Assembly: GCA_937862935.1 (NCBI GenBank) | Contig: CALMEO010000118.1 | Location: 1-48,663, forward strand | DNA: 48,663 nucleotides | Reading direction: 5' to 3' | DNA from: an uncultured bacterium | Lineage (GTDB): Bacteria; Patescibacteriota; Gracilibacteria; Absconditabacterales; Absconditicoccaceae | Part shown: positions 1,406 to 46,828 of the stretch, in pieces | Position numbering within the stretch: the stretch's first letter is position 1 | How the letters are laid out: the number at the start of each line of letters is the position of its first letter | Notes under the pieces: model-generated | What the model saw: only the letters and a program-made list of their open reading frames with translations | The model's database searches: none | Told to the model about the DNA's origin: nothing | Program-made: the position numbers and the translations under genes

Positions 1406-1867
1406 ATGAAGCCTATTGTTTTTTTACGTATTATTTTTGTCCAAGTAGTATTGGCAGTGATCTGATCCTTGTACTTTTCTAATTTTTGAGATCCTATAGC
1501 TAATACATTACAAGGACATATTTTTGGTGGGAGTGGTTTTGAACCTTGTCATTTGTGTCGATGGGCAAGAATCTTGATGTATCCTTTGCTTATAATCTCT
1601 TTTGTATGACTTCTTCGTAAAGATACAAAAATAGTATATACAATATTGCCTTTTTCTATTGCTGGACTTGTACTAACGGGCTATCATTATAGTATGCAAT
1701 ATATCAACGCACTAAATGTTTTTACTTGTGTACCTGGGAATCCATGTACTACTATTGACCGAAAAATATTTGGTATTGTTACTATTCCTGCTTTGGCTTG
1801 GTTGGCATTTCTTGTGATTACTCTCTGTGCGATGGCTATTCTTATTAAAGACAAAAAATATACCTAG
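1406..1867 (+). CDS. dsbB: DsbB/BdbC-like disulfide oxidoreductase
   Basis: A 153-residue membrane protein of the DsbB family, which oxidises thiol-disulfide partner proteins outside the membrane and passes electrons to quinone. Four hydrophobic segments are visible. The first redox pair is C-H-L-C near residues 48-51 and the second is C-V-P-G-N-P-C near residues 108-114. Codon CGA at 1559-1561 lies directly after the CxLC, where DsbB/BdbC proteins have Trp (CxLCW), and a second CGA at 1760-1762 lies before the FG-x-x-TIP helix where Trp is common; both support CGA=Trp here. It stands alone, with its own promoter. No DsbA-like partner is adjacent, although a DsbA could lie elsewhere. Confidence 0.85.
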
Positions 1868-1883
1868 ATTATATATGCTTCAC

Positions 1884-2348
1884 CTATATGTATTTTTTAT
1901 ATAAAAAAAGAGAGAATCAAAACCATTCTCCCTCAAATATTTTTGTAATAATCTTATTTGCAAAACGCAGATATGATTTTATAACCAACCCCATAACGAA
2001 ATACGCTATGATGTACCATTTTAACATATCAATACTTAACCATATGTTGTGATTTGTATATTTATAAAAGATTATAAGTTCCAGTATTGGTATACTAGAA
2101 ATGGTGTAGAGTAATGTTTCTATAAACCAATGTCTTTGTACGATTTCAATTGTCCGTCCGTACATAACTGCTATTACATTGGGAATTGTAGTGATGAGCG
2201 ATTTTGTTAGACAGAGCAATAGTAGTGTTTTTTCACTGTGAAGTATACCTATGTGTACAAAAAAAGTAACAATGAAAATCGAGGTATAAATGCTGATATA
2301 TTCTGTCCAAAATTTTTGTGTTTTGAGTGCCTTATTTATTTTCTTCAT
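1884..2348 (-). CDS. Small multi-pass membrane protein, unknown
   Basis: 154 residues beginning MKKINKAL, with about four hydrophobic helices and charged ends. A UGA-stop reading would end it after EGEWF; with UGA as Gly it runs 11 residues further to TAG. It converges on the dsbB-like gene with only 16 bases between the stops. I recognise no family. Confidence 0.6.
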
Positions 2349-2496
2349 GATTGTTTTGTTTTTCTTTGAGGTAGTGTAATATCTTTGTATTATGGGAAAT
2401 CAATATATATTTTTTCTGGATTTACTAAAAAATTACCCACTGATACAGGGGTAATTTTGATTGGGATGTGCTCCAAGTGTTTCATTTTATTTGCAT

Positions 2497-2763
2497 TTAT
2501 TTGCGAACAAAACGAATGTAGTAATCCGGTGGTATAATACCGTTTGTAGCGAGGTATAACTCACGATTTGTCTTGGGTGGACAGGTTAATATGAGACTTT
2601 CCCAAGTCATACATGGTAGTGTTGCAGTTTCTGTGAAATTTGTTTTTGTACTTCCCGATACTGTAGTTGTATACTTCTGTTGTGTACTTCCAGATATATC
2701 TATTTGATTCTGGTTTCCAATGTTAAGCGTTATGCTTTCTTCATAGATGTCTTTTTTGTTCAT
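2497..2763 (-). CDS. Small Ser/Thr-rich hypothetical protein
   Basis: 88 residues, no TGA codons, TAA stop. The central part is rich in Ser, Thr and Gln and holds two Cys (LPCMTW, ILTCPP), which could form a disulfide. No signal peptide or transmembrane segment is seen. The flanks 2349-2496 and 2764-2947 hold nothing I can assign. Confidence 0.4.
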   Translation of the reverse strand: MNKKDIYEESITLNIGNQNQIDISGSTQQKYTTTVSGSTKTNFTETATLPCMTWESLILTCPPKTNRELYLATNGIIPPDYYIRFVRK

Positions 2764-2947
2764 ACTTATTTTTTTATTTTTTTAGTTATTTTTATCCTTT
2801 CTTTTTTATCCTTTTGTAGAGGATATAAAACGTGGTGGATACTTCCATTTTGTTTACTTGTTCTTTTTGTTTTTTACCATAGGCTTTTGTTTTATATATG
2901 TATATATACTTATATAGTTATAGTATATAAAGTCAAACATAGATATT

Positions 2948-4063
2948 TTATTGTGAAACATTTACTCCTAGTGTTTTTTCTAGTTCATCTATCATAATGC
3001 TTGCATAGGATCATCCTTGTAAGGTAAAATTGAGTACTATATCGTCTTGTTGAAAATGTACGCTTACTTTCTGAGGGAATACCCAAATCGGTCTTCTGAT
3101 TCAAAATATTTTGTAGTTTTCACATAATTTCAAACTCTTTTCTGTGATTCAATTTTTTTCAAGCAATCATTGTTCTTTATTACCTGCAATAGTTCCTTTG
3201 GGTGCTAATAATAGATTATATCAGACTACGGGTCACGTGATTATCATAGTATCTGGATTGAAAGGGATTTCTCATGTAAGATTTTTGGGATAACGAAAAA
3301 ATTGTTTGCTCTTTTTTGTATCATCAAAAAGCTGTACGGTATTTGTCTTTGCTTGGTATATTCACCATTGGTTTTTTTTGTCGCTTGTTGTATCTAGAAC
3401 GATATCCCCATCCAATATTTGGAGTCATTTTTTTGTCCTTGTATAGATATATTCGTTTAGCATTTTGCTTCCATAGGATTGTATTTTGAAAATAATGTCT
3501 TTTTTGTCTTTTATATTTGATTTTCATTGGAGGAGTTCACTCCCCTGTTTTGGATTTATTCCACTTATACCAAATCTTTGATTTCAAAACAAATTGGGAA
3601 ATCATTTCTTAAAGAGACTGAGTATCTTTCTATTTGAGATATCTTTTTCTTTTACGCTCAAATGCTTATTTGCTCTCAATTTTATATAGAAGCTATTTTT
3701 TATCGGTGTTGTCATCCCTATAGGATCAGTATGCCAAGCTGTTTTGAGTACTTTTGCTACTTCTCCTATACTTGCCATAAATGCTTTTTCTCCTCCAAGT
3801 TTTTTTAATGCACGTTTGTATATACATATTCGTTGTCTTGTGATAGCTTTTTTATCTTTGAGTCCTGCTATCCCAAGGGTCAATCTAGGGATATTACAAG
3901 AAGAGCAAATATGGTTTACTACATCCATAGTGTTGAGATTTCTTTTTTCAAAAAACACAAAAAAAACATCTCCTTTGTCAGCAAAGGTAAACGGTAGTTC
4001 CTCTGTCACGATGAAGTCCTGTGATTTTTGTTTAAAGGAAAATAATTTATCATCTATACTCAT
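2948..4063 (-). CDS. truD: tRNA pseudouridine synthase D
   Basis: 371 residues. TruD makes pseudouridine 13 in tRNA. The signature AGLKDKKAITRQ near residues 66-77 contains the catalytic Asp of the family. A second family motif, NQRFGISG, and the C-terminal GGSYASIMIDEL stretch are both present, so the gene is complete. CGA at 3830-3832 follows the ITRQ, where bacterial TruD often has Trp and archaeal or eukaryotic members have Arg. Under the standard code only the first 153 residues would be made. The upstream gap 4064-4276 separates it from the divergent OLD gene. Confidence 0.92.
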
Positions 4064-4276
4064 GGATATCTTATTTATTTACTAAAATCTATTTTATTCC
4101 TTTCTCGTTGTGTGATCTACATATATCTGCCATTGGCTGTATGTTTTTTAGATATTTTATTTTTGAAAAGTAAATGCATGTTTGCGGTAGATAGCTCTAC
4201 AAATTTGCAAAAATATTTTTTTTGAGTATACTTATATGGTAGGAATATACAAGTATTTATCCTGCTCTGATCACGT

Positions 4277-6211
4277 ATGCAACTAAGTAATATCAAAATT
4301 TCAAACATTTTGAGTTTTCCTTATCAACCCGATCTTTCAAAGATTGAAGGTGTAAAATTTCATAATAAAAAAGATACCAATGTGAATGTACTTATCTGAC
4401 CAAATGGTGCTGGTAAAAGCTGATTTTTACATATAATCAATCAGTTTATCAGGGTTGGGATTTTTAATGATTATATCTATGATAAACCACTTATCTCTAG
4501 TAAAAATACTGATTATCATCAGGTCATTACCCGTAATACACAATATACAGAGTGACTTCATCCTCATTTTACTACTCCTGACAAACCATCACACCTTATT
4601 GTGGAGTTTTTGCTTACACAACATGATTATGATAATATGATACATATAAGTAAACATGCTAATATCTTGAATATGCTTATTAAAAAATATAGCACCTTGG
4701 ATATACGTTATCCTGTGTTCTCTCAGCAAGAAATCAGAAATATCCCTAATACCTTTGTTTTTAATTGTTCGCTTGCTATTGATTCTCAGCAAATTATTAT
4801 CGATCAAGATCATTTTTCTCTATGAGAACAATTTGTATTCTTGTATTTGCAGACTATAGAACTTATTCAGATTTGTATCGATATTCATAATGAATTTGAA
4901 AGAAAGGATGGAGAACTGCCAATAGATCATCTCAAGAATGGGATTTGATTTATAGGCATGAACAGAAGCCTACATAAAGTCTCTAATTCTATAGATCCTC
5001 ATGCTTGGGATACCTTTCTGTGAAATAAAAATTCATCTGATTATCATTCCTATATTTGATTTTACCTTTGTGCAAAAAAAATACGAAATATTATTTCAGA
5101 TCATGCTCCTTTGTATATGGATGAAGAGCATATGAAACATTATCGTGAGAAACTCGAAAAATCAGATTTTTATATTAGTTTATCGGCTAGTATCCAAAAA
5201 TATTTTAATAGAACTTTACATATCGAATATAGCAATTCACTCATTACTTTTTCTCTAATAGATGTTTTTGGTAATAGTGCTACATTTTCTCAGTTGAGTG
5301 ATGGAGAACAATCCTTGTTATCTATGGTTTTTACTATGTATGGCTATGATCTTAAAGATGGTATGATTATTGTCAATGAGCCAGAAATCCATTTTCACCC
5401 TCAAATGCAAAGAAGTTTTTCGAGAATGATAGAAAAAATCAATGAACGTATAGGGACTCAATTTATACTTTCTACCTACTCACCCTTGTTTATTAATGAA
5501 TCCAATATTGGGAATGTCTATAGATTTTCAAAGATACAATGAAATACACAAATCAAAAATCCACTTATTACCTTATCTCATGATGAAGCGACTTTGGTAC
5601 ATCTTCTCAAATTTGAAAATCTTTCCAAAATATTTTTCGTCAATAATATCATTATGGTAGAATGAGAGACTGATGCTTATTTCTTTGAGTTTTATTTGAA
5701 ATATCTCCACACACTTCCGCAACGAAAAAGTAAAATAACCGACTATGAAATCATAAATATCAATGGTAAATGAAGTTATAAGGTTCGAAGCCACTTTCTT
5801 TCTAGATTTGGTTTACAATCATTTTTTATAGGTGATTGGGATAATATCGTAGATTATGGCTTTATGACCCAAACTGATCTGTGATATTATTATAAACAAA
5901 CAAGAATACATTACGCTGGACTTAAAAAAAGTGGTAAAACTCACCGTAATTATAATAAACTCGTTGATACTATACAGAATGTTTTCCCCAAAACGTATAC
6001 CTATTTGATTACCAATATTGATACACTTTATAAGAAGCATGTCTTTATTCTCAAAAAATGAGATATAGAAGCATATATTGGTATGCCAGAAAAATGATTA
6101 GAAAAAATGGTAAAATTTTGTCATTATGATTTTAGTCGTCGATTGCATGATAAAAATTTTGATTCGTGTAGACAAGAATTTGAGACAATTTTTACTACTA
6201 TATTTACATAA
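4277..6211 (+). CDS. OLD-family ATP-dependent endonuclease (ATPase + TOPRIM)
   Basis: 644 residues. The N-terminal ABC/SMC-like ATPase has Walker A GPNGAGKS near residue 40, the signature LSDGEQSLLSM near residue 343, and Walker B IIVNEPEIHFHP near residue 370. The C-terminal TOPRIM domain has the metal-binding IMVEGETDAYFF, followed by a FFIGDWD segment that supplies the second acidic cluster. This arrangement defines the OLD (overcoming lysogenization defect) nucleases, known from phage P2 and from bacterial defence systems such as Gabija, where a helicase partner is next door. No helicase is adjacent, so it appears to be a stand-alone class 1 OLD. TGA encodes the Gly in Walker A, so the gene needs UGA=Gly to work. 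Confidence 0.88.
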
Positions 6212-6226
6212 TTTTTTTAAAGAAAA

Positions 6227-6253
6227 ACTCTGAAATTTTTTTATATTCAGAGT
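6227..6253 (-). terminator. Terminator between convergent genes
   Basis: A perfect 8-bp stem (ACTCTGAA with TTCAGAGT) is followed on the minus strand by TTTTTCTTT. It ends the operon whose last gene is at 6281-6850. Confidence 0.65.
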
Positions 6254-6280
6254 CTATATAGTAAGATGAGGTTTCTGGTA

Positions 6281-6850
6281 TTATCCTTGAAAAATAAAAA
6301 ATCCTGCGACTATAATGAAAATAAGTGAAAGTCATATAAATATCAAATTTTTGAGTTTTTCATTTTTTATCATCCCCTTTAATTGTCCTATTTTTTCTTC
6401 TAGTTTTTGCTTTTCTATAATGGCTTCTTGTTTTTCTTTGTTGTAGTCTGGTAACGCAATCATATGTTGTATCTTGCTTTCAAGTTCAGAAACTCTTTGC
6501 TGAAGCACAAAAATGACTTTATTTTTTTCTTCGAGCATCTTTTCTTTTTCTTTGAAGATAAGAAAAAATTTTTCTACTTTTTGATCAATAGCATCTTCTA
6601 AGTCGTTCTTATGTGCTATACCTGTATTATTGCTGGTATTTGATTGGTTAATGATTTCTGTATTGAGCTCTTGATGAAGTGTTGCAAATTCTTGCTTTAG
6701 TGCAAGTACCTCTTCTTTTGCTAATAGTACCTTATTAGCTATTTTCTTATAGGACAATTTTCCACTTTTGATATATCTATCTATAGTTCTTGTAGAGATA
6801 TTCAAAGATTTTGATGCGACTTCTCTAGTTACGTTGTACGTTTTACTCAT
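6281..6850 (-). CDS. HTH protein with coiled coil and C-terminal membrane anchor
   Basis: 189 residues. The N-terminal part (about residues 5-45) fits a MerR/excisionase-type helix-turn-helix, with REVASKSLNISTRTIDRYI as the helical core and a following KIANKVLLAKEEV wing. A long Gln/Glu/Lys-rich coiled coil fills residues 50-165. After a TGA-coded Gly comes a hydrophobic helix (LIFIIVAGFFIF) ending the protein. It would be a DNA-binding protein tethered to the membrane. ATG at 6850 is preferred to a TTG two codons earlier. Target genes are unknown. Confidence 0.65.
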
Positions 6851-6941
6851 AATCAACTAATATTAATAATTTAAAATACGTATGCAATATACCTATCTCT
6901 CTATGATAAGGCTTTCTGCTTTTCTTTGGCTTTATTTTTGT

Positions 6942-7205
6942 TTATTGGTTAAGATCAAATTTGGTAGGTTCTGGTTCTTGGATATTATCTAATAGTGATT
7001 GTATAAATAATACTAATAATACCCCTTCTAGCATCCCCATAGAAATGATATATAAATATACCCCAGCTATGTATTTATAATATCACATAAAGAAGTATAT
7101 TCATGACATTGCTGGTCCTGCACCTGCATTTTGAATATATGGTATTACTATTAGTATAAATACAATGATGACAAACCAAAGATACATTATTGTTTTTTTT
7201 TTCAT
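6942..7205 (-). CDS. Small membrane protein, unknown
   Basis: 87 residues starting MKKKTIMYLW, with two or three hydrophobic helices and a short acidic tail. Two TGA codons sit in the middle, so the standard code hides the gene. It lies between the HTH protein and the holin-family gene, probably co-transcribed with them. Confidence 0.55.
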
Positions 7206-7242
7206 TTTTTATATCGTCTATTAAATAAAGATACTTTCTAGA

Positions 7243-7626
7243 TTATATTATTTTTTTGATTAAAAAGTATATTACGCTGAGTATAAGGGATAATATAAAT
7301 GTTTGTACAAGGGTTCCAAGTTGTACACCAATCCCAATATCTAAATAGTTAACTGTTTGTTCAAAAATATAGAGAACAATAAGATTGAGTAATAATGATG
7401 ATAGTCAAAGTGTTATTATCCTTATGGGTAAGGTAAGTATTTTTAGTACATTTTTGAGTACTGAATTTATCAACCAGAAGATGATTCCTAAGACTCCAAA
7501 GATGATATAGCTGTCTTTGTAGATGGATTCTATTTTAAATCCAAGTTCTGGTATATAATTTACAATGACATACAACACTACCCCGTTCACGACAATATTG
7601 ACTAGAAGATGTTTAATCGGCTTCAT
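7243..7626 (-). CDS. Phage holin family 4-like membrane protein
   Basis: 127 residues with four hydrophobic segments and an N-terminal KPIKHLLVNIVVNGVVLY stretch, then a short polar turn and further helices with LPIRIITLG. This organisation matches the PF04020 family (YvlD-like, four-TM proteins named after a phage holin but found on many chromosomes), whose role is unknown. A TGA at residue 74 is read as Gly. It is not evidence of a prophage by itself. Confidence 0.6.
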
Positions 7627-7794
7627 ATCTATATCTAATAGCTAAAATGTATCATATAATAGATATCAGTAATAGAACTGATACATATTTGTCTACTGTT
7701 TTCAATATCATTTCATATTCTTCTTATTGGCTTTTTAACATACTTTTGTCATTTTTGTTAAAAATATGTCAATTTATGTACATATCTGTCTCAT

Positions 7795-8202
7795 TTAGTC
7801 CTCTATCAAATCATCGAATGTGTCATTTTTACCGTCTTTTGTGTATGTGTGAATTGCATTTCTTGTGGCTAGTATGGCTATAACTGCTGCCCTCTTTCTT
7901 CTTGGTGATACTTCAAACCCATGGTCTACCATTGTCTGATAATTTCGTTGTAGTACATCTTTTATGGATTTTCCTATAATAAACTCTGATAAGAAGCTAG
8001 CTGCAGCTGTACTTATATTTGAACAATTTCCATCAAAACTGTAATTTTTTATTATATTGTTTGTGATCTCTAGATATACGACAATATCATCTCAACAAAT
8101 AAAATTACCCTCGTGTTGCTTTATAGTATATTCTTTTAAAGCAAAATTCTGGAGAGGGTTTTTAGCATATTCTTGTATCATGATATTTTGTTCTTCGCTC
8201 AT
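7795..8202 (-). CDS. IscU/SufU-like Fe-S scaffold
   Basis: 135 residues with the U-type scaffold pattern. The first ligand is Cys in FICGDD, with the usual CGD motif, and the second lies in FDGNCSNISTAAAS. The third conserved Cys of the family, normally in an RxKCA segment near the C-terminus, is absent: this part reads RRKRAAVIAI. Either cluster ligation differs, or the protein works as a sulfur-transfer partner rather than a scaffold. The sufCB pair lies about 3 kb away on the same strand, but no cysteine desulfurase is in the window. Confidence 0.75.
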
Positions 8203-8213
8203 TGTATTTGGTC

Positions 8214-8249
8214 TGTAAAGTCCGTAAAGTCTGTAAGGTCCCTAAAATC
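8214..8249. repeat. 9-bp tandem repeat
   Basis: Three copies close to TGTAAAGTC in tandem (8214-8222, 8223-8231, 8232-8240) plus a fourth degenerate unit, just upstream of the IscU-like start codon at 8202. Two GACTGTATA copies follow at about 8251 and 8281. A role as regulatory site is possible but unproven. Confidence 0.6.
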
Positions 8250-8289
8250 GACTGTATAAGTTTTCGACTTTATGGCTTTTGACTGTATA

Positions 8290-8562
8290 CTAATCTAGTC
8301 TATATCGGAGACATTCTATAAGTCTTTTTATCATAAGGATAATCTTATTACTTATTTCTATAAATCACTTGCTTGCTATTATTTCGAGGCGTTCTATTTG
8401 GCTTGCAACATTGTGGACTGCAATCAAAAATTTATTTGAATTGATTTCTAATACTACATCATATGATCCATCTCCATTTTCTGTAAAGAGTGCAGTGACA
8501 TTGTCTAGGCAGATCTTTTGCTGACATGTGTCCATAGGAGTGATAAGGTTCATTTGATTCAT
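8290..8562 (-). CDS. Small hypothetical protein
   Basis: 90 residues starting MNQMNLITPMD, with a beta-strand-rich centre (SYDVVLEINSNKFLIAV) and a basic C-terminal helix ending at TAG. One TGA is read as Gly. It is first in the minus-strand run that continues to the IscU-like gene. Family not recognised. Confidence 0.45.
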
Positions 8563-8685
8563 AGCATATCGCTAAATAAAATACCAAAAGATGAAAAATG
8601 TTGGTACGAGCTTTTTTATGGTTTTAAAAAATAAATGCAATAGAAAAACTGTTTGATTTTTTCTGGAAAAATCATCTTGATTTTT

Positions 8686-8714
8686 TTGTACAAAACATTA
8701 TATTTTTTTATAAT
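8686..8714 (+). promoter_or_regulatory. Promoter for the AbiEi-like gene
   Basis: TTGTAC and a perfect TATAAT with a 17-base spacer, 24 bases upstream of the ATG at 8739. Confidence 0.65.
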
Positions 8715-8738
8715 ATTTTTATAGGTAAGTACTTGTTT

Positions 8739-9509
8739 ATGTCTAATAAAGTTTTTGACAATCTTGTTAAAAAACTGATTAAATATAGAGGAAAGCTCGT
8801 AGATGGGGAAAAAATTTCATTGCTCCTTAAATCCTCTCTTGCTGAAGATTTTTCGTTACAGAAAATGTATAAGATTGTGTATTACCTTAAGATCAGGGGA
8901 TATCTTGAAAATCTTAAAAAAAACATATTCTTTGTTAAGGATCCTGATCATACCTATACCACAGAGGAGATCATTGATCTTTTCTATCGAACCATTGTCA
9001 AGAAACATTGTACAGATTTTCTCAAAGGTAATCGATATATTTGATGACTTAAGGCCCTTGAATTGAACCTTTCTTCATTTGATATCCCTGATGAACTCTC
9101 TATCGTTAATCAGTATAAACAAGCTACCGAAGTCATAATGTTCGAAAAACAAATAGTGTTTAAAACCTATTCTAAAAATAAGACAGATAATCTGTTTAAG
9201 TTTTTTTGGAAATTTACTAAAAAAATATCTATAGGTAAACATATTTTTCCTATTGCTGGTTTGGAATTAGCTATTTTGGAAAGTCTTTATAATCCATGAA
9301 TGATTTCTCAGTGATATATCAACGAACTGGTAAAAAAAGTAATAAGAAAATACCATACAACATTGGATATAGCTATCTGGGAATCTATTTTGAGAAAAAA
9401 TAAACATAATACAAGTATCAATAGGTTGTATACACTTACAAAAACTATTGATCCTGTCTTGGCTGATACACTCAAAAATCTTATCAAGAAATATGGGTAT
9501 TTTATATAA
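8739..9509 (+). CDS. Hypothetical protein, possibly AbiEi-like
   Basis: 256 residues. The N-terminal third looks like a winged-helix segment. It is followed by a KGNRYIGGLKALELNL stretch and later by AGLELAILESLYNP, which together resemble the layout of AbiEi-type antitoxins and related type IV toxin-antitoxin regulators. The match is by pattern only. No AbiEii nucleotidyltransferase toxin is adjacent, so if the family assignment is right this is an orphan. Start ATG at 8739 is preferred to a TTG two codons earlier because it fits the promoter spacing. Confidence 0.4.
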
Positions 9510-9547
9510 TTAGAGTAGTATTTCTTATTTTTTACGTACCTATACTT

Positions 9548-10543
9548 TTATTTTCGTAAAAATTCTAACTCTCTGATGTATTCATATACATGTCATAAGA
9601 TTGAGAATTGTTTATCGTAATATCCATCTAAGAGCTTCTGACAATCAAATGCCATTACTTTTTGAACTTCGTATTTATCAAAAGCATAAGGTCCATTATG
9701 GATTCCATAATAGAGATAATAGTATTCTGATTGAGTATCGGTTTGTTTTAATCCTATTCTTTGTAGAATTAGCTCTGTTTCTATTCCCATTTCTTCTAAT
9801 AGCTCTGCGTGTGCAGTTTCCTCTATACTTTGTCATAATGTTTGATGTCCTCAAGGCATATCCCATTTATTTGCTCCCGTAGCTTTGGTTGGCGCTCTTT
9901 GTTGAAGTATTACTTGTTTCGCTGTGTTAAAAAGCATAATATGAGCAGCTCTGTGATATACAGATGGATTACTATGTGCTTCTCTTTTTAAGATAGAACC
10001 TATTTCATGATTATCTTTGTCTACTTGTAGTAATATTTCATCTTGTGTACTATTCATACTTGCGATAGTTGCCATTACTTCGTTTAATGTGCTTAGTTGT
10101 AATGTATACATTCAATCTATATTTTCCAATTCTTTTCTCTGCACTCGTTTAAATTCAATAAATTCATCTCAAACATTAGTTTCTCATGATTGGTATTCTA
10201 ATAAATATTCCATAGTAATTCCATTACAACGATGGTCGTATCATTTGTCGGACACTGCTGTCACCATTTTTTTTATTTTAGCTTGTATTCAAGGTACTTC
10301 TTTTTGAAGTATTCTATTGATCGTTTCTTCTGGTGTTTCATCGAAATACATTCTTCCTCAGGGAAATATCCATTCGATTTTATTCTCCAGATTAATGTGC
10401 AGTTGTTTTTTTCCTATAAAAAATTCTGGTTCTGTATAGATATTATCTTTGTCTTTTCTGAAAATCACTAAATCTATGTTGAGCATAGGTGGTACACGAT
10501 CTATAAGTTCTTTAATATGATCTTCTTTGGTAATAGTATACAT
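9548..10543 (-). CDS. Tandem double-Nudix fusion protein
   Basis: 331 residues holding two Nudix domains. The first (about residues 15-150) has a degenerate box, GGRMYFDETPEETINRIL followed by QKEVPGI, in which the REUxEE core is lost; it resembles GDP-mannose mannosyl hydrolases and may only bind. The second (about 170-325) has GGHQTLGQSIEETAH then AELLEEMGI, with the core E-x-x-E-E intact but Gln for the first Glu and Ala for Arg. A DNHEIGSILKREAH lead-in recalls IDI/YfcD-type Nudix proteins. CGA at 10145-10147 encodes the residue before VQRKEL, normally Trp in this context. Its ATG overlaps the stop of the HD gene by one base (TAATG), so translation is likely coupled. Confidence 0.75.
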
Positions 10544-11115: not shown

Positions 11116-11145
11116 GATAGTAAGCTACAATATAAATTGATTTTG

Positions 11146-37106: not shown

Positions 37107-38000
37107 ATGATAAACAAAAAAGAAAGACCTACAGAAGATTGACAACTTTGAGCTATTAAAAAAGATTTCTTTTTTGATATGGAAGGTGAAAAACCGACTA
37201 AGGATTCTCTAGATCCTAAGAAATCTATCTGTTTATTTAGTACAGATTCTCTTTCTGGATATGGATTAGATCTTGTATTTGAACTTGTTAAAGAAGCATG
37301 ATTTGATGGAATAGACTTGGCTATTTGGAAAAATTTTGATTCTCGAAAAATAGATTATGTAAAAAAACTCTCTGCAAATTATCAGCTTCCTGTTAAAGTT
37401 ATTCAAACCTCTGACAATCTCAATGATAAGGAAATCAATAGAGCTATCGACTTGTGCTATGAACTTGGCGCTGATACTATCACCATCAATGCTCCAAAAT
37501 TTTTCAATTTCAAAGCATTTGCTTTTATTACGGACAATATATTAAAACGAAGAAAAGAACATAAAAGTATTCATTTTGCCATTATTAATCCAGAAGATTC
37601 AAGTCTTTTCGCTTTACCAATACCAAAATATCGTTTCAGTAACATGGTAGAAATTGTAAAAAAATATCTGTGTTATATATGACTTGATATCTCTAATCTT
37701 GATTCTGATTCTTTTGAAAGTGACTTCCTCAGGAAAATGAAGGATTTTCTTCCTTATCTTGCTATTATTTATCTTTCGGATAAAAGTAGAGTTGGAGAAT
37801 GACATATTTTGCCTGGAGATTGAGTATTAAAATTACCTACTTTTCTCAAAAAGCTTAAAGAATATTGATATACTCGCTATTTAAGTACCAAAATAACGAT
37901 TTCTAAGTCTGATCTTGCTGACTGTGATAAGGTAAAACTTATCCTCAAAAAATCTAGAACCTATCTTCAAGAATACTATGATGAGTTAAAACTTAATTAA
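37107..38000 (+). CDS. Sugar phosphate isomerase/epimerase-like TIM-barrel protein
   Basis: 297 residues. The core begins after about 35 charged residues with CLFSTDSLS, then GFDGIDLAIW, GADTITINAP and a late HILPGDGVLKL, following the xylose-isomerase-like TIM-barrel (AP2Ec) pattern. The usual metal-binding Glu and His set is not fully visible, so activity is not certain. TAA stands immediately before the GCC-ATG, fixing the start. A strong terminator follows. Confidence 0.7.
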
Positions 38001-38001
38001 A

Positions 38002-38024
38002 AAAATCCCCATAGTGGGGATTTT
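38002..38024. terminator. Bidirectional terminator
   Basis: AAAATCCCC pairs with GGGGATTTT around a short loop; T tracts flank both sides, so it serves the TIM-barrel gene on plus and the small gene at 38045 on minus. Confidence 0.8.
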
Positions 38025-38044
38025 AATTGTCCAAAAAGAGTTTC

Positions 38045-38242
38045 TTAACTCTTTTTTTCTTTATTCCTAAAAATATAGTAAACTATCATAAATGGGAAGG
38101 CAAGTATTTTTCTGATAGTAGGATTTATCCAAAGAAATGCTGGATACTCTTTAAATATCATTTTAAGAAAATCCCCGAACTTATTGGTTTCTTTGTGTGT
38201 ATCAAAAGGATAAATAATGAGATCTCGAAGGAAACGAAACAT
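38045..38242 (-). CDS. Small basic protein, unknown
   Basis: 65 residues, no TGA codon: MFRFLxDLIIYPF with CGA (Trp) at x, a hydrophobic C-terminal half (ILAFPFMIVYYIF) and a basic KEKKS end. Probably membrane associated. It starts 66 bases downstream of the trigger factor stop and ends at the shared terminator. A plus-strand ORF over the same bases is a shadow. Confidence 0.45.
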   Translation of the reverse strand: MFRFLRDLIIYPFDTHKETNKFGDFLKMIFKEYPAFLWINPTIRKILAFPFMIVYYIFRNKEKKS

Positions 38243-38308
38243 AAATTATACTACTTATGAGGTAAAAGATGATAGATGAAAATTTTCCTTGTCCCTCGTA
38301 CTTGTTTG

Positions 38309-39550
38309 TTAGTGGGTATGTGGATTTTTTGTTTTTACTTCTGTACCATCATTTTTCACAAGTTTATCATAAAGTTTTTGTTCTACATCCATATGTGCTG
38401 TTTGATTCCAATCTACGTCTAATGCGAGCAATTGTGTAAATTTTTGTAAGATAAAGAATTTTTCTAAGCTTTCTTCAGCCGCTTTAGTTATATCTTCAAA
38501 AAATGCTTTTGCTTTTTCGTCTCCCATATTTTTAAAATATTGTTCCATTTTTTCTTTACCTCCCAATCTTTCTTCAAGACTTTTCATTCTCGTCTTCATT
38601 TCTTCTTTTACTAATGTTTGTGGTATCATTACCTTCATTGTTTTATTTCTTATATTTTCTAATACTCCCTCTATTTTCTTGATAAGTTCTTGATCATATT
38701 TTTGGTGTTCGATTGATTCTTTAATGTGAGCAATTAGATCATCTTGATTCTGCATTTTTGTATCGTCTCATAAGAGTTTTTTGAGCATTTCAGGAGTCAT
38801 CTCTGGAAGTACTATTTTTTTGATATCTTTTACTGTAAGCTTTATTTTTTCTGCTTTAGTGTCACTTTTTTTGTTATGAAGTACAGCAGGAAGTTTTTCC
38901 TCATCATGAACAAGCTCTATCACTTCATTAAGTTTCTTGTTAATAAATGTCTTGGGGAAAAATGGATCTTCAGCAAACTCTTGTTCACCAACATAGGTAT
39001 GTCATGTATGTACTACGTTTCCTTCTTTATCCAAATATTCAAGTGCAATTTTAGAAATCGTCTCGAGTTGGATGCTATCAGTATCTTGATAATCAGCATA
39101 TTGTTTCTTTATATTCATTAATGTTCCTTCGATTTCTTCTTCAGTAGCAATATTATCAATAGGCGTACATGATTGTTTTTCTCGATCATTATTTATTACT
39201 TCTACTTCTGGAAATATATCTAGTTTAAGATTTATGATAGTAGTATCATCTTTTTGTTCTTGTTTGAGATCATAAGGTTCACCTATCAATTTAATATCTG
39301 GTTGTTCTTTTAGTATTTCTTGGAGTCCTTTATTGATAAGCTTTTCATATGCACCTACAGAAATATATTCTGGTTGGATGTTTTTTTCTATCATATCAAG
39401 TGGTGCTGAACCTTTTCTAAAACCTGGTGCTTCATAGTCTTTTTGAAACTCCTTGAGCATAATAAGTTTAGCGTCTTCATATTCTTTTGTTGTGATGGTG
39501 AGTTGAATCTCATAGTTTGCATGTGCTCATTTTTTTACTTGTTTTTCCAT
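38309..39550 (-). CDS. tig: Trigger factor
   Basis: 413 residues, ribosome-associated chaperone. The N-terminal ribosome-binding domain includes the signature APGFRKGSAP (usual GFRxGxxP). A degenerate PPIase domain follows, with a TYVGEQEF stretch, and then a long helical C-terminal domain (IPQTLVKEEMKTRMKSLEERL). Two TGA codons are read as Gly. The 14-base gap before the AT-rich 39551-39690 stretch leaves no obvious promoter. Confidence 0.9.
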
Positions 39551-39685
39551 TGTAAACGTGAAAGTATAAAAAAATCTAATGCATAGAGGATATAGAAAAT
39601 ATATAAGAATTCAAGATAAAGAAAAATCATCTAATTTCTTCGTTGTGTTTTACCTGTTTCTTAGAGTGTATACTTTTATAGAATA

Positions 39686-39718
39686 AAAATCAGATCCTCT
39701 TTGATAAGGTCCGATTTT
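39686..39718 (-). terminator. Terminator after the exported-protein operon
   Basis: An 11-bp stem AAAATCAGATC/GGTCCGATTTT with one mismatch and one G-U, and a T-rich tail on the minus strand. It follows the stop at 39751. Confidence 0.65.
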
Positions 39719-39750
39719 TATTTGTTTCATAACATATACTATTGTTACTA

Positions 39751-40443
39751 TTAATCTGCAAAGGTCGCTTCTCCTATTCATATTTCCTCTCGAATAGGTA
39801 CAGGATTAGTAGGACTAAATATTACTGGTTCACAGGTACTTTTCCATGATATGCCTGAAGTTGTTCCTGTTTGTGCACCAGGATAACATATTTGTAGTGG
39901 ACAATATGATCATGCTGATCCAAGAGCGGGTAATGATAATCTAATTGTCCCTATTGCAGCTTCGTTACAACTAGAAGAAGTACCCAAATTTGTATTTCCT
40001 CCTACTGTTGAAAGTTGTAGTGTTCCATATACGTGAAGTTTTGATCCATTTGGATCTAAACTGTCTCACACAAAAAGATTTTCTTTGATCATTCCATTCC
40101 CTTCAACATATATCGCTGGTCTGTATTTTTCTGCAAGCAATGGTTTCATTTCTTTTGTATTATTGTCTGCTACATATAAATTACTCACTACTCCCATTAT
40201 TCAGTTTGCTATCAAACTTCACGGAGTCTTCAAAAAACTTCAAGATTCTGTTCGTCCATTTACAAAATCATGAACTTTTTGTCATCGACTTACTTCGAGC
40301 GTTCAATCTGCTACTGGTTTTGCTTCTCATGATAGTATGCTTGTAAAAGCTGCTAGCACTATTGCACTCAAGACAACGAAGAACGTAATAAAAAATAAAG
40401 ATACTTTTTTAAATACAAATTTTCACACTTTTTTAGATGACAT
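39751..40443 (-). CDS. Exported surface protein
   Basis: 230 residues. A basic start and hydrophobic segment (SLFFITFFVVLSAIVLAAF) form a signal peptide or anchor. The body is Gly/Ser/Thr-rich with short beta strands (ENLFVGDSLDPNGSKLHVYG) resembling repeat units of the larger neighbour, and two Cys near the C-terminus (SYCPLQICYPG). It lies 52 bases downstream of the large surface protein and likely shares its transcript. Function unknown; probably a cell-surface component. Confidence 0.6.
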
Positions 40444-40494
40444 CTTTAAAAAATAAATATATAAAACATTATAAACAATTAACTACTACTTATA

Positions 40495-42979
40495 TTATTT
40501 TCATCGTGTACAGCTCGTAGATCATCGTAGTGATAATCATCGACCACATGAGCTATTTATAACAATTCATGTCGTTCATCATGTTGCATAACAATTTATC
40601 GTTGAAGTTATATTATATTGATTTGTCGCTGTCAATACTGGAATAAAGGTTCAGATAGTTTTATATTCATGAGTTGTTCCTGAAAATGATGATACGTTAT
40701 TTATTCCTATAAAATCACCAAAATTTAATGAATATATTGCTCGATTTTGTTCTATTCCATTAAACATTACCTCTAATGGTAAATTTCATGATGTAGGATT
40801 CATAGTAAAACTACATTGTGGCATCTCTCGTTGACATGATGAGGTACATCCATCATTATTAGTTATATTTCCATCATCACATAGTTCTCCTGTTTGTACT
40901 ACTCCGTTTCAACATGCTATATTTAGCACACAAGATCCTCAACTTAAAGTATATCATGGAGCACATATATAGTTACATGATGAAGTACTTGGAGTTGTGT
41001 TGTATGCATATATATTTATAGGCGTCCATAGCGTACATAATGTTCCATTTGAATCTCAACATGTTTGTAAAATTCCTGTTGCTGTATTTGCTATAGCATT
41101 TACGGGAAGAGAAAGACATGCTTCGTTTTTTGTTTCTCGCTGACATGATGAGGTACATCCATCATTATTAGTTATGTTTCCATCATCACATTCTTCTTCT
41201 GCTGATTTTTCTACTACTCCATTTCAACACGATACATTTAATACACATGTAGATATACTTCAGCTCCAGGTATATCACGAAGCACATGTGTATTGACATG
41301 CTGTTGTACTGGGCACTGGATTATATGACGGAGTCAGATTTGATGGCATCCGTAATTGACACGTAGTTCCATTGGAAACGCTACATGTTTGTGGTATTTG
41401 TGTTACGGTATTTGCGATAGTATTTGCCGGTATACTTCAACAAGTACCTGTTCTTGTTTCTCGTTGGCATGATGAGGTACATCCATCATTATTAGTTATA
41501 TTTCCATCATCACATAGTTCTCCTGTTTGTACTACTCCATTTCAACAAGCTACATTTAGTACACATGTAGATATACTTCAGCTCCAGGTATATCATGTGC
41601 TACATTTATAGTAACATTGTGTTGTACTTGGTGTTATATTGTATGTATAAGTAAGACTTGGTAGCCAAGATGTACATGTTGATCCATTAGATGTATTACA
41701 TGTTTGTGTTACGTTAATTGCTGTGTTTGGTAAGGTGTTTGCTGGTAATGATGTACATGCTTGTGGTATTGGATTAGTTTCTCGTTGACATAATGAGGTA
41801 CATCCATCATTATTAGCTATATTTCCATCATCACATAGTTCTCCTGTTTGTACTACTCCATTTCAACAAACTATTGGCAATCAAGTATCACATGTTCATC
41901 ATAGAACAATCCAAGTAGCTCCATCGCATCATTGAAAACAACTATCTTCAAATTTTACCGTTCATGCTTCTGTTGGTGAACAATTTTGTAGTAATCAAGA
42001 TCATGATCATAAATTTTTTATTCACAATCACATCATATTAAGATTTAGTGTTGCTATATGGTTTCATAGATTGTCTCATATTCATGTTCATGCTGGTCAT
42101 GCTGGTCATGTCGCTCATTGTGCTCACGTAGCTCATGTATTTCCTTGAGGTCACTGTATTGTCTCTATAAATCAACTAATATGATTATAAATACTACCGC
42201 TTGTTGAACCTATTATTGTTCCACTAGCATTAGTACCTAAAACCACTTTGTTTGATAAATTACTTATTCTGACATTACCACCATTTATCTCCAATCTTTC
42301 TTGGGGATTGATTGTTCCGATACCTACATTGCCTAATGGATTGATAGTAAAATATTCTTGATGACCAAGTGCTCCTATAAAAAACACATTAGGATTTGAA
42401 TCTCATCATGCAATCCATGTCTCCACTGGTGTTTCTAAACGTAAACTCGCTGCATTTCCTGCCACTGTTTCTTCTATATAGATATCTGTATCTCATGATC
42501 CTTTGACATGTAGTTTACCATCCATTATCGCGGTTCCTATACCTACATTCCCTTGAGGGATACTATACATATCGTTGCCTGCTATCATCCAATCTTCATC
42601 ACTTGATGGTACAATTACTGTTTCACCAGTCACTCCTCATGAGACAACAAGGTTGGTAGTGTATGCATAGATAAGATTTCATTGATTATCTACTCCGAGA
42701 ACTTTCCCTGCGAAATTTCCTGGTGCTGCGGTAATTCCACCACCTGTAGTATTTACATATGTTAAGATAATTAAAATCAAATCGTGTTGTTCCATTACTT
42801 GTTCCATCATTTGTTATGGTTATCCTTCCTATCGTCTGCCATGCATTATTTATATCTGAAAGAATATTTATATCAGCAAGAGTAATTACTGATGAAAATC
42901 ATAAAACTATTGTAAGAAACAATAATATCATATTTTTTATTGAAAGATTCTTTGATCACACTCTATGAACTTTGAACAT
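40495..42979 (-). CDS. Large surface protein: collagen-like, DUF4215 and PKD segments, with a frameshift
   Basis: Two overlapping frames together make about 825 residues. The first (42686-42979) holds a signal peptide (KNMILLFLTIVLG) and the start of a beta-rich domain; the second (40495 up to about 42810) continues without a new signal. The shift is near 42765-42790 and needs one base gained or lost. Segments after it: VGIG repeats with GNVGIG..., a collagen-like stretch (GPQGNTGATGAQ..., near 42100) in which most Gly codons are TGA, four DUF4215 cysteine-rich repeats (CGNGVVQTGELCDDGN, NNDGCTSSCQ), and a PKD-like end (LNFGDF). It is probably an adhesin or host-contact protein. Confidence 0.75.
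40834..41885 (-). repeat. Four DUF4215 coding repeats
   Basis: Near-identical blocks with a common GAGGTACATCC start at about 40841, 41150, 41474 and 41795, at periods of 309, 324 and 321 bases. Each encodes CGNGVV...CDDGN and NNDGCTS then C. Between blocks are diverged CxxCxx segments with YTWSGSISTCVLN. Confidence 0.8.
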
Positions 42980-43325
42980 GCAAGCATGGGTTAAAAACTA
43001 AATTAGTATGTGTTGTGCGAGAACTATACTATATATACGTTGGTATATATTTCCTATGTTCTGAATTATATCTAATTATACTCAGAAATATCAAAAAATG
43101 CAAATTTTAATAATTACTTTTTTTTGTGTTATTATTCTTTCTTGTATGTAAAATATTTTTATTTCTTTTTGTTTTATGGAAAGTAATGGAATAAACTAAT
43201 TTAGCTTGATATTTACCTATATATTTATACTATCATCAGCACATTTTTATCTTTATCTAGATAAAAACGACGTTAAGGTTTTAAAAAGACCTTTCTGTAT
43301 ATTGTTTTATGTTATTTTTTTATGT
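42980..43325. other. Intergenic region, divergent promoters
   Basis: 346 bases between the surface protein and infB, strongly AT-rich. A minus promoter is at 43065-43094. A plus candidate for infB is TTGATA at 43206-43211 with TACTAT at 43228-43233 (16-base spacer). No ORF in either direction looks real. Confidence 0.45.
43065..43094 (-). promoter_or_regulatory. Promoter for the surface-protein operon
   Basis: Minus-strand TTGATA and TATAAT with an 18-base spacer, about 85 bases upstream of the ATG at 42979. Confidence 0.5.
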
Positions 43326-45767
43326 ATGCCAAAAGTATCTATTAAACCAGCAACAAAACCAGCAATAAAAAAAACACCGGTCAAGGTATCGGCACAAAAA
43401 TCTGGAAAATCCTCACTAGAGACTAAAAAATCTTCTAAAATCAAGGAGGGAAAATCTTCTGTAGAAAATGAAATAACTACAAAGGTACTCAAAGCTGATG
43501 AACTTATGGGTGAATGAGGATGATTTTTGTCATGATTGTGATTTAAAAAAGAAGAGAAAACCGTTAAACAAAAAGAGGAAGAACAACATAGAGAAGAAGA
43601 ACAAGAAGAAAGTATTATCTTAGAGAAACCTAGACGTAGTCCTATGTCTTTTGATAAGGTTGAACAGACAACAGCACATATAATAGGTAGAAGAGATGAT
43701 TCTTTTGTTAGTAAACCAACTATTAGGTCATCAGCTAAACCTGTAACTAAGCCATTGAGCGCACCAATATCTACGAGTATTTCAACACCTAGGCCAAGAA
43801 ATGCTACACCTCAACATGGAGGTAAACAATTTCCTACAAGGACTGGATATCAATGATCTAAACCGCACTATGGAACTAATCAACAAAGTAGACCATTTAA
43901 TAGACCATCTTTTCAGCAAGCAAAACCAACTGTACAACAGCCCGTCAGAGTTGTTACCCCAAAAATACAAAAAGTTGCTACAACTTCTGCCAATCTTGTA
44001 AAAAAAATAGAGATATATATCAATGACAAAATTACCGTAAAAGAATTTTCTGAGAAAATGTGAGTACCTTTACCAGAACTCATGAAAAAACTTATCCAAA
44101 ATAAGATTATGACCTCTATAACTGCATCTTTAGACTTTGATACTGCAGCATTGATAGCCAGTGAATTTAATATTCTCGTAAAAAAACATGATAATAAGGT
44201 TGACGTTCAAACATTTATGAGCGGAGACTTACAAGAGATTCTTGATATGGATAAAGATGCTGAACATCTACTTCCAAGACCACCTATTGTTACCGTTATG
44301 GGACATGTAGATCATGGAAAGACTTCGCTTCTCGATTATCTCAGAAAAACCGTTATCGCTGAAGGTGAAGCGGGAGGAATCACTCAATCTATTTGAGCTT
44401 CTGTTGTGGAATATAATGGGAAGGAAATATGTTTTATCGACACTCCAGGACATGAATTATTTACTAGTTTGAGAGCTAGATGAGCTAAATTGACAAATAT
44501 AGCAATTATTGTTGTAGCTGCTGATGATAGTGTCATGCCTCAGACTATAGAATCTATTTCTCATGCAAAAGAATCTGGTGTACCTATTATCATTGCTATT
44601 ACCAAGATAGATAAACCAGGTAAAAATATGGAACAAATCAAACAAGATCTTGCCAAATATGGTCTTACTCCAGAAGATTGGTGAGGAGATACTCCTATGA
44701 TTGGTATTTCATCCAAAACAGGACAAGGTATACCAGAACTTCTTGAAACTGTTCTTCTTCAATCAGAAATGCTTGATCTTAAATATAATCCGGACAGATC
44801 TGCAGTTGGTGTCGTTGTTGATGCTCATAAAGACCCAAAACAAGGTGTTGTCTCTAGTATTATAGTAATGACAGGAACGCTTAAAGTTTGAGATACTGTG
44901 GTTGCATACAATACTACAGGAAAGATTAGAAGAATGCAAAATCGAAAATGACAAAACATTACTTCAGCTACGTGATGAGAACCAATACAGGTTCTTGGAA
45001 TTACACATTTACCAGATCCAGGACGTATTGTAGAGGTAGTAAAAAATGAAAAGGAGGCACAAGCTAAAATATCACTTATTCAAGAGCAAGTAAATATAAA
45101 TGCTGGAGATTCGGTTGTTAAACAGTTTATTTCAGAATTACAGACTAACGTTTTTTGAGCAGAACTTAAGCTTATCTTGAAATCTGATGGCTCAAGTAGT
45201 TTAGAAGCACTTCAACAAGCAGTTGATGGAATTATATTACCTAAAAATGTCACGATAAGAATAATTCAGGCAAGTGTAGGACATTTTTCTGATTCTGATA
45301 TTGCTCTTGCACAAGCATCGTGAGCATTACTCTTGGGATTCAATATTTCCATGAATGCTATATTAAAAAAGAAATCAGACTCTATGAAAATTGAAATGAA
45401 AAATTTTGATATTATCTATGAGCTTGTTGATTATCTCAATAATCTCCTTCTTGGTATGGTAGAAATAGAACAACATGAAGTAATGTTTGCAAAACTTGAG
45501 GTACTTGGTATCTTCTTTACCAAAAATAAAGATATGACGGTATGAGGGAAAGTTATTTTTGGAAAACTTCATGGTAAGCCAAAATTTAGTGTAATGAGAG
45601 GTGAAGATATTCTTTGTACTGGTCATGTGGTTTCTTTACATAAAAACAAAGATGAGGTAAAGGAAGTTGGTGAAGGTGATCAGTGTGGAATCAAAGTGAC
45701 TACGTGAAAGAAAATAGAGATTTGAGATATTATAGAATTTTATGAAATGCAAGATATACCAGATTAG
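43326..45767 (+). CDS. infB: Translation initiation factor IF-2
   Basis: 813 residues. A lysine-rich flexible N-terminal region (residues 1-240) is followed by the IF2N motif ([20 protein letters not shown]) and a G domain with GHVDHGKTS near residue 325, DTPGHE, and ITKID (TKID for the usual NKID). Domains II and C-terminal IF2-C follow ([31 protein letters not shown]). It brings initiator tRNA to the ribosome. Many glycines, including in the N-terminal GEGGxFLSG run, are TGA-coded. Start ATG 43326; upstream TTG candidates lie in the promoter. Confidence 0.95.
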
Positions 45768-45900
45768 AAAATAATTGATAATGAATAGTTGATAATGAAT
45801 AATGTTGGTATTGTTTCATTATGAACTATTGTAATTGTAACTATAGTCTATAAAAAAACAGTATCCATTATTATTCATCATTCATTTTTCATTATTGATC
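45768..45900. repeat. AT-rich inverted-repeat element after infB
   Basis: The left arm GATAATGAATAGTTGATAAT then GAATAATGTTGGTAT and right arm ATTATTCATC then ATTCATTTTTCATTATTG are inverted. ACTATAGTCTA lies between. The left arm shares 20 bases with the ftsA-ftsZ element; the inner part matches 24681-24745 in inverted orientation. Confidence 0.6.
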
Positions 45901-45905
45901 TTGTT

Positions 45906-46433
45906 ATGAAATTGATCGTTGGTTTATGAAATCCAGGTAAAGAATACGAAATCACAAGGCACAATATATGATTTATGATTGTGAACGATTTTTTGAAAGA
46001 TGGAGATTGGCATATGGAATATGGAAAATGGAAAGGCGAATGGCAGGAATCAATTATCGGAGATCAAAAAGTTTTTTTTCTGAAGCCTATGGAATTTATG
46101 AATCGTTCATGATGAGCAGTGTGAGCATTAGCCCGCTTCTATAAAATAGAACCCAAAGATATCTTAGTGATTCATGATGATATTGATCTTCCCGTAGGTA
46201 AAATTCAGTTAAAATTATGATGAAGTAGTGCTGGACATAATTGATTAAAAGATATCATTACTGTTTTAGGTACTAAAGATTTTTGGAGATTGAGAATCGG
46301 TGTTGATAGGCCTATAAATCAAAAATATGTTGCAGAATACGTACTCACTCCTTTCAAAGAAGAAGAAAAGAACCTCATCGATGATAAGATGAATCACATA
46401 GAGACACATATTACCACGTTTTTATCTAGTTAA
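45906..46433 (+). CDS. pth: Peptidyl-tRNA hydrolase
   Basis: 175 residues. Frees tRNA from stalled peptidyl-tRNA. [20 protein letters not shown] gives the N-terminal binding segment with the catalytic His; [24 protein letters not shown] (catalytic Asp) and GGSSAGHNGLKDI complete the family motifs. TGA codons supply several of these glycines. Slightly short at the C-terminus, but complete. Confidence 0.93.
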
Positions 46434-46444
46434 TAATTAAACTC

Positions 46445-46828
46445 ATGAAAAAATTATTCTTACTTACTACTATGTTTTGATTGCTTGTGTTTGCTGGATG
46501 TTCATCAAACCAGACACCAGAAACTATTGATGAAGTTACTTCAACATCAGAAACTCCTGTAGTAGAACAAGAACAAGCACCTACAGTTTTGCCGACAGTA
46601 TATACTACTCAAGATGTAGAAGCACATGCGACAGCTGATTCTTGTCGATCTATTGTAAGAGGTCAAGTCTATGATTTTACTGCTCGATCATCACAACATC
46701 CTGGATGAGCTGATAAAATTCTCGCTATTTGTGGAAAAGACGCTACACCAGTTTTTGAAAAAGTTCATGGGGGCAAAGAAAAACCAGAAATGAAGTTGGA
46801 GGATTTCTATATAGGAAATCTTAAATAA
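46445..46828 (+). CDS. Lipoprotein with a cytochrome b5-like domain
   Basis: 127 residues. The signal ends in the lipobox LVFAGC (lipidated Cys near residue 19) followed by a Thr/Glu/Pro linker. The C-terminal part reads SCxSIVRGQVYDFTAxSSQHPGGADKI then CGKDATPVFEKVHG, the cytochrome b5-like fold with HPGG and FEKVH giving the two haem-binding His. Both x positions are CGA (46646-46648, 46685-46687) where the family has Trp (CW...VYD and TxW..HPGG). It starts 11 bases after pth. A small surface or periplasmic haem protein; an electron-transfer partner is unknown. Confidence 0.8.

Follow-up and report, generated by a model that had tools for sequence, protein, structure and literature searches.

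Evidence for UGA as a glycine codon and CGA and CGG as tryptophan codons in an Absconditabacterales contig

Introduction

Absconditabacteria were described as reading UGA as glycine and both CGA and CGG as tryptophan (Shulgina and Eddy 2021, PMC8629427). That paper sets out all three reassignments with the underlying tRNA logic, and both are restated in PMC13092985; in the literature examined, UGA = Gly combined with CGA = Trp is described for Absconditabacteria only. Here, we have analyzed contig C118 of an uncultured bacterium, 48,663 bp long with a GC content of 0.307 (hereafter the window), from an assembly of 1.32 Mb in 141 contigs (95.4% complete, 4.2% contaminated). A preliminary description, made from the letters of the window, had assigned this code to it, had called the code already described and had placed the DNA in the Absconditabacterales; the present analysis supports it on all three points. 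We conclude with high confidence that the window is part of the chromosome of a member of the Absconditabacterales (SR1) in which UGA encodes glycine and both CGA and CGG encode tryptophan.

The genome resembles the Absconditabacteria of PMC8629427, as characterized there, in the three reassignments, the low GC content (0.31 here), arginine encoded chiefly by AGA and the presence of Trp-type tRNA-UCG and tRNA-CCG; UppS serves as showcase gene in both cases. NCBI table 25 (SR1 and Gracilibacteria) shares UGA = Gly, a tRNA-UCA and a release factor 2 (RF2) that is not found; unlike this order it keeps CGA and CGG as arginine, which for CGA suits two related families (f14 and f22). In Anaerococcus and a Bacilli clade (Onthovivens), CGG was likewise taken by a tRNA-CCG of tryptophan identity in a low-GC genome (accounts in PMC8629427 and PMC13092985), but CGA remains arginine there, whereas it is tryptophan here. 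Bacteria of the candidate phyla radiation (CPR) with archaeal-type tRNA-Trp and tryptophanyl-tRNA synthetase (TrpRS), as presented in PMC5370408, are also a CPR lineage with unusual tryptophan charging; unlike in those, the tRNAs here carry the bacterial G73 and TrpRS matches the family TIGR00233.

The code itself is already known, having been in print since 2021; the high share of CGA and a pattern in TrpRS are additions of modest weight. The passages of PMC8629427 at hand compare methionyl-tRNA synthetase for AGG = Met and contain no comparison of TrpRS, and a search which mostly left subscription journals outside revealed no literature joining 'Absconditabacteria' and 'tryptophanyl-tRNA synthetase'. 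The analysis confirms, with its own gene sets and order-wide data, one of the few natural bacterial codes with reassigned sense codons and allows the window to be translated correctly. For annotation of this clade, table 11 breaks genes and table 25 places arginine at tryptophan sites; the code number is presumably 'translation table 37', a phrase not found in the literature examined.

UGA as a glycine codon

Open reading frames (ORFs) overlapping by at most 20% were collected with code 25, in which UGA is open, and with table 11. ORFs of at least 60 aa covered 92% of the window with UGA read as glycine (52 ORFs) as compared to 48% under the standard code (82 ORFs); for ORFs of at least 100 aa, coverage was 89% and 23%, respectively. 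In-frame TGA was present in 42 of the 44 ORFs of at least 100 aa found with code 25.

73..48555, no strand assigned: stretch read with UGA as glycine; 52 ORFs of at least 60 aa, 35 of them with CGA or CGG

These 52 ORFs comprise 14,955 codons, among them TGA 328 times, GGN 633, TGG 84, CGA 77 and CGG 8 times; the arginine codons AGA, AGG, CGT and CGC occur 252, 48, 56 and 15 times.

For a column test, TGA, CGA and CGG were masked as X, and SufB and SufC were aligned to profiles derived from 80 loci of other bacteria that use the standard code; homologues of three further window genes were not found among these loci. The reference loci are rich in Actinobacteria; hence, the effective depth of the profiles is reduced.

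11146..12531, minus strand: SufB (TIGR01980, E = 2.6e-186), with 10 TGA and with 5 CGA/CGG at residues 39, 59, 88, 132 and 260
12415..12417, minus strand: SufB residue 39, CGA, Trp column (W 0.45, R 0.02)
12355..12357, minus strand: SufB residue 59, CGA, Trp column (W 0.28, R 0.03)
12268..12270, minus strand: SufB residue 88, CGG, Trp column (W 0.45), absent from the preliminary description
12136..12138, minus strand: SufB residue 132, CGA, Leu/Val/Ile column
11752..11754, minus strand: SufB residue 260, CGG, Trp column (W 0.45)
12534..13277, minus strand: SufC, with TGA at Walker A and at further Gly columns
12861..12863, minus strand: SufC residue 139, its sole CGA, Glu/Asp column

Summed over the 14 TGA codons, the log-odds score was +28.0 bits for glycine, with alanine as runner-up at -1.9 bits; 11 of the 14 were located in Gly columns, of which there are 45 among the 674 aligned (p = 1e-11). 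Coverage and column test thus bear out UGA = Gly. Likewise, UGA was found on the family glycines named earlier, in the Walker A motifs of OLD (residue 96) and SufC, in the phosphoribosyl pyrophosphate (PRPP) loop and in Pth; the GGGTGTG motif of FtsZ can be added.

CGA and CGG as tryptophan codons

The preliminary description had proposed profile alignment as a check of the two codons. The four CGA codons of SufB and SufC summed to +8.5 bits for tryptophan, followed by tyrosine at +1.4, with arginine at -3.0; the two CGG codons, both in SufB, gave +10.6 bits for tryptophan and -2.3 for arginine. Control codons scored as AGA Arg +19.0, CGT Arg +8.7, TGG Trp +10.6 and GGA Gly +52.5; for a single AGG, lysine (+2.4) stood above arginine (+1.4). 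Four of the six CGA/CGG codons were found in Trp columns, of which the 674 columns contain only six (p = 3e-8), and the other two Trp columns are occupied by TGG. None of 20,000 random codon sets reached the Trp-minus-Arg score. No CGA or CGG occurred in the 20 columns of SufB and SufC that score best for arginine; these were occupied by AGA (6), AAA (6), CGT (3), CGC (1) and four other codons.

Ten CGA/CGG codons had been reported at conserved tryptophan positions, and at each of the ten coordinates one of the two codons is indeed present in frame. Three of the four SufB sites (12415, 12355 and 11752) are in Trp columns, and the fourth (12136-12138) is not. Fifteen of the 35 window ORFs with CGA or CGG were then scanned against Pfam with these codons read as tryptophan and as arginine only; 20 ORFs, including 20271-23246 and 40495-42810, stand outside this test. 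A family was found in 14 of the 15 proteins, and reading tryptophan instead of arginine gained 62.7 bits over 20 domain rows (12 up, 5 down, 3 equal).

46880..47635, minus strand: DUF2461 protein, 3 CGA; +18.0 bits with Trp, the biggest gain of all rows
46445..46828, plus strand: cytochrome-b5-like lipoprotein, CGA at residues 68 and 81; Cyt-b5 +13.4 bits
31323..32108, minus strand: UppS, CGA at the Trp of GNRxW (31974-31976), one more CGA and one CGG; +10.9 bits
9548..10543, minus strand: double Nudix protein, CGA at 10145-10147 and one other; NUDIX +6.8 bits
1406..1867, plus strand: DsbB-like protein, CGA at 1559-1561 and one other CGA; +6.0 bits
35890..36873, plus strand: EEP family protein, 4 CGA, one at 36733-36735; Exo_endo_phos +2.7 bits

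The UppS site at 31974 aligned with tryptophan in all four alignments displayed, of 31 matched PDB sequences, in agreement with its earlier assignment. For the sites named in the DsbB-like, b5-like, Nudix and EEP proteins, tryptophan is favored by whole-domain scores, and the assignment holds at this domain level. Further gains were observed for SUFBD_core (+4.2), Trigger_N (+2.4), PAP2 (+2.2), TruD (+2.1), N6_N4_Mtase (+0.6) and DNA_ligase_OB (+0.3); HHH_5 and UPF0004 (both -0.1) as well as HHH_2, TRAM and Trigger_C (all 0) were near level. Weaker overlapping rows, PAP2_3 (+2.0), NUDIX_4 (+4.5) and HHH_8 (-0.1), stand outside the sum.

Per 10,000 codons of whole ORFs, the window has 52 CGA and 56 UGG; other pieces of the assembly (70.7 kb) have 56.5 CGA, 11.2 CGG, 68.8 UGG and 212 TGA. 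By these frequencies, CGA and CGG make up about half of the tryptophan codons here, and the tryptophan content of the window proteins is 1.12% under the new code instead of 0.56%. According to the survey section of PMC8629427, CGA stays below 37 per 10,000 in all species surveyed, counted in aligned Pfam domains; the value of 52 exceeds this limit, and the comparison is approximate, setting whole ORFs against aligned domains.

Comparison across the order

The order is represented by 49 genomes, assigned to a single family and to 22 genera (genomes, contigs, genera and families carry our labels G, C, g and f). Ribosomal-operon proteins were compared in 40 genomes, 27 from the order and 13 from outside. 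Twenty-one of 33 seed families were kept; 12 were judged from their sequences to be shadow frames and dropped. An apparent use of AGG at Trp columns came from shadow frames and was rejected, these 12 families being excluded from the counts. Agreement among 70% of the unambiguous codons defined a conserved column; CGA, CGG and TGA did not vote except in four standard-code genomes.

With the two genomes of genus g16 set aside, 11 conserved Trp columns of the remaining 25 order genomes contained TGG 210 times, CGA 34 and CGG 7 times. The 112 conserved Arg columns contained AGA 2238, AGG 188, CGT 78 and CGC 7 times and neither CGA nor CGG, in line with the earlier remark that the conserved arginines inspected use these four codons. 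Altogether, 97 CGA codons were distributed over Trp (34), Tyr (3), Phe (2) and variable columns (58), and 18 CGG codons over Trp (7) and variable columns (11), with none in Arg columns. Nine outside relatives from f14, f22 and f12, all with in-frame TGA, had 16 CGA in Arg columns (f14 12/29, f22 4/19) and none in Trp columns. Two genomes, G061 (30) and G107 (20), contribute 50 of the CGA codons of the outside relatives, and G107 has only 5 TGA in the set. The four standard-code genomes had 10 CGA and 2 CGG in Arg columns and none in Trp columns. The occurrence of CGA at arginine in TGA-reading f14 and f22 indicates, in line with the published account, that UGA = Gly has a broader distribution than CGA = Trp.

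A FastTree phylogeny of the 21 concatenated proteins placed the 27 sampled order genomes in one clade with a local support of 1.0; together with the published code pattern of Absconditabacteria and Gracilibacteria, it agrees with the origin proposed for the window. Genus g16 (G030, G031) branched first (0.978 for the remainder), and f14 and f22 adjoined the order, support for the sister node not being printed. The TGA-rich genome G059 (f12) was found beside the standard-code genome G049, which has few aligned codons; UGA = Gly may have arisen separately in G059, or the placement may be an artefact of the tree.

tRNAs and release factor

tRNA identity positions were read by eye, with identity rules as set out in PMC8629427.

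18739..18812, plus strand: tRNA with anticodon CCG (reads CGG); A1:U72, G73, U20 (no A20), CCA encoded; Trp identity

ARAGORN labels this tRNA as Arg from its anticodon. Its anticodon stem closes with the non-Watson-Crick pair U31:G39, an observation which bears on the idea of superwobble by 4-bp stems outlined in PMC13092985. The genome of the window contains a single tRNA-UCG (C106:7918-7992), which is Trp-type with G1:U72, G73 and U20, a tRNA-Trp CCA on contig C35 and, on C88, a tRNA-UCA with glycine elements (G1:C72, C2:G71, G3:C70, U73). By eye, the arginine tRNAs CCU and UCU of this genome show A20, which its CCG and UCG tRNAs lack.

A Trp-type UCG pattern (U72-G73) was found in 12 of the 21 family genomes searched and in 2 of 124 outside, where ARAGORN does not call the two as UCG tRNAs; the corresponding CCG pattern was found in 18 of 21 and 2 of 124, the latter two (G101 in f14, G059 in f12) both being called as tRNAs. 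Some variants escape these patterns, since G002, G019 and G020 possess Trp-type UCG tRNAs with a different loop end. For genus g8, an apparent lack of CGA decoding was discarded: the pattern had missed the UCG genes of G019 and G020 because their loop ends with C38. The CCG tRNAs of G101 and G059 agree with a published remark, in the portion of the literature at hand, that CGG = Trp may extend into Gracilibacteria. These genes (G101:C4:314124-314164 and G059:C5:3059-3099), accompanied by TrpRS motifs TDD and TDS, are candidates for a reassignment of CGG only.

No RF2 was detected in the genome of the window (95.4% complete) above the prfB cut-off of 370; the best match, at 235 bits, is presumably RF1, and the search was positive in 10 of 14 controls. 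Judged from gene content, UGA can serve as a sense codon because RF2 was not detected and a tRNA-UCA of glycine type is there to decode it. CGG would be decoded by the tRNA-CCG of the window, and CGA, probably together with CGG, by the tRNA-UCG, their charging with tryptophan being predicted from sequence. Arginine is encoded by AGA, AGG, CGU and CGC. In the Absconditabacteria code, CGU and CGC are decoded by tRNA-Arg-GCG, with tRNA-Arg-ACG absent. A host gene for tRNA-Arg-GCG, present in all eight other genomes of the genus, was not found in the assembly, and the one tRNA-Arg-ACG gene lies on the phage-like contig C55; host genes for tRNA-Cys and tRNA-Ser-UGA were not found there either, so that assembly gaps are the likely cause.

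Alternative explanations

Several observations weigh against CGA and CGG as plain tryptophan codons of an Absconditabacterales genome. More than half of the CGA codons in the ribosomal set (58 of 97) are in variable columns, CGG is scarce in the window (8 codons), and SufB residue 132 and SufC residue 139 are outside Trp columns. Pfam scores dropped with tryptophan for SufBD_N (-2.7 bits), AP_endonuc_2 (-2.1) and Radical_SAM (-1.9), and a BRCT match of 20.7 bits with arginine was unlisted with tryptophan. Furthermore, we infer the clade name from tree placement and code pattern.

Ambiguous decoding, with both tryptophan and arginine inserted at CGA and CGG, is unlikely. It would have arginyl-tRNA synthetase also reading C35, a determinant of this enzyme in other bacteria, and it fits the CGA codons in variable columns; however, the CCG and UCG tRNAs lack A20, unlike tRNA-Arg CCU and UCU, and the conserved Arg columns are free of both codons. 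A low level of arginine insertion at CGA and CGG may nevertheless occur.

Even less probable is plain code 25, in which only UGA has changed, CGA and CGG are still arginine and the tryptophan coincidences arose by chance. The CGA codons in Arg columns of f14 and f22 show that UGA = Gly need not entail CGA = Trp, and arginine scored higher in 5 of the 20 Pfam rows; yet 41 CGA/CGG codons in 11 Trp columns face none in 112 Arg columns, chance is opposed by the p-value for SufB and SufC, and Trp-type tRNAs exist for both codons. An assembly mixture, with window genes from several organisms of differing codes, can hardly be maintained: the bin is contaminated, for example with the phage-like contig C55, which has few in-frame TGA and its own tRNAs, but UGA, CGA and the tRNA-CCG occur along a single contig, and 70.7 kb elsewhere in the assembly has like usage. 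UGA = Gly with CGA and CGG = Trp remains by far the best explanation.

Tryptophanyl-tRNA synthetase

The genome's own TrpRS (C69:7842-8810, minus strand) is its sole match, scores above the TIGR00233 cut-off and has bacterial proteins as best PDB matches. For the E. coli TrpRS-tRNA complex, the contact descriptions in PMC12135181 have C35 read by Thr225, Asp226 and Lys274, A36 by Ser227 and the Thr225 backbone, and C34 contacted by the backbones of Tyr270 and Gly271; this numbering agrees with the PDB chain used in our alignment. We compared 46 order sequences (45 genomes, G022 twice) with 47 others; G040 was left out, and a match was lacking in 3 of the 49.

In the order outside g16 (n = 44), T225 and K274 were present in all 44 sequences, D226 in 15 and S227 in 5 (lost in 39 of 44), while position 271 was Lys in 39. 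The two g16 sequences showed T225, D226, S227, K271 and K274. Outside the order, S227 was found in 37 of 46 and G271 in 44 of 47 sequences. Ranked by loss among 110 conserved TrpRS columns, 271 was 7th and 227 was 14th, which puts both among the most altered positions, but many columns are altered on the order's long branch.

If a single TrpRS charges the CCA, CCG and UCG tRNAs, its pocket would rely on the shared C35 and tolerate A or G at position 36 and C or U at 34; the changes at 227 and 271 fit this dependence. We tentatively propose, as a possibility somewhat short of even, that the order's TrpRS was rebuilt alongside the code, with C35 readers kept, 227 and 271 changed, one enzyme charging three anticodons and CGA rising to a co-equal tryptophan codon. 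Several findings speak against this proposal: g16 has a Trp-type CCG tRNA yet retains Ser227; Gly271 is retained in G019, G020 and G001 despite their Trp-type UCG tRNAs; Asp226, a contact of C35, is frequently lost; and Ser227 is missing in f14 too (5 of 8). The link between synthetase and code is suggestive, not proven. The pattern makes tolerance of new anticodons a question for a simple charging experiment.

An association of Asp226 loss with the CGA plus CGG share (27 genomes; Mann-Whitney p = 0.048, uncorrected for relatedness) was not used. G022 has two TrpRS genes above the cut-off, C1:8115-9086 and C5:255139-256104, with anticodon-loop motifs TDA and THS.

The early-branching genus g16

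An intermediate stage with reassignment of CGG only was considered for G030 and G031. Apparent support came from the canonical TDS motif in TrpRS and from a ribosomal set without CGA, and no Trp-type tRNA-UCG was found among the tRNA places covered (36 of 36 in G031, 35 of 43 in G030). The idea was dropped: both codons occur in G031 and Pfam mostly favors tryptophan. G031 (249 kb, 63,455 codons) contains 18 CGA and 24 CGG, which at 2.8 and 3.8 per 10,000, as compared to 66 for UGG, are nearly absent. Tryptophan scored above arginine in seven of eight Pfam rows: YgjP (+9.2, from one CGA), DnaJ_C (+3.5), SecY (+2.7), TatD (+2.5), CHAP (+0.9), OBG (+0.5) and Mur_M (+0.3), with Mur_C at -0.2; the count leaves out a weak Dynamin_N row (-0.2), and other rows were equal. 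The tested ORFs, 7 of 32 with CGA or CGG, were picked by eye as recognizable, which biases the sample. G030 contains an Arg-type tRNA-UCG (G1:C72, A73, A20, CCA encoded), maybe on a contaminating contig; in G031, no tRNA-UCG was detected.

Other observations

Contig C55 (105 kb, phage-like) is probably a contaminant, whose tRNAs should not be tallied as host decoding. One 20 kb piece carries 27 tRNA genes, tRNA-Arg-ACG among them. Only 11 in-frame TGA were found in 12,381 codons, and TGA terminates 3 of 48 ORFs. Two pieces, amounting to 3% of a 20 kb query, share roughly 80% identity with the baseplate region of Flavobacterium phage immuto.

In the window, a 771-aa protein with DUF4215 repeats (40495-42810) has 46 in-frame TGA, double the number in the second-ranking ORF (23). 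The ORF at 4112-6211 encodes an OLD/PtuA-like ATPase weakly similar to the effector ATPases of anti-phage retrons.

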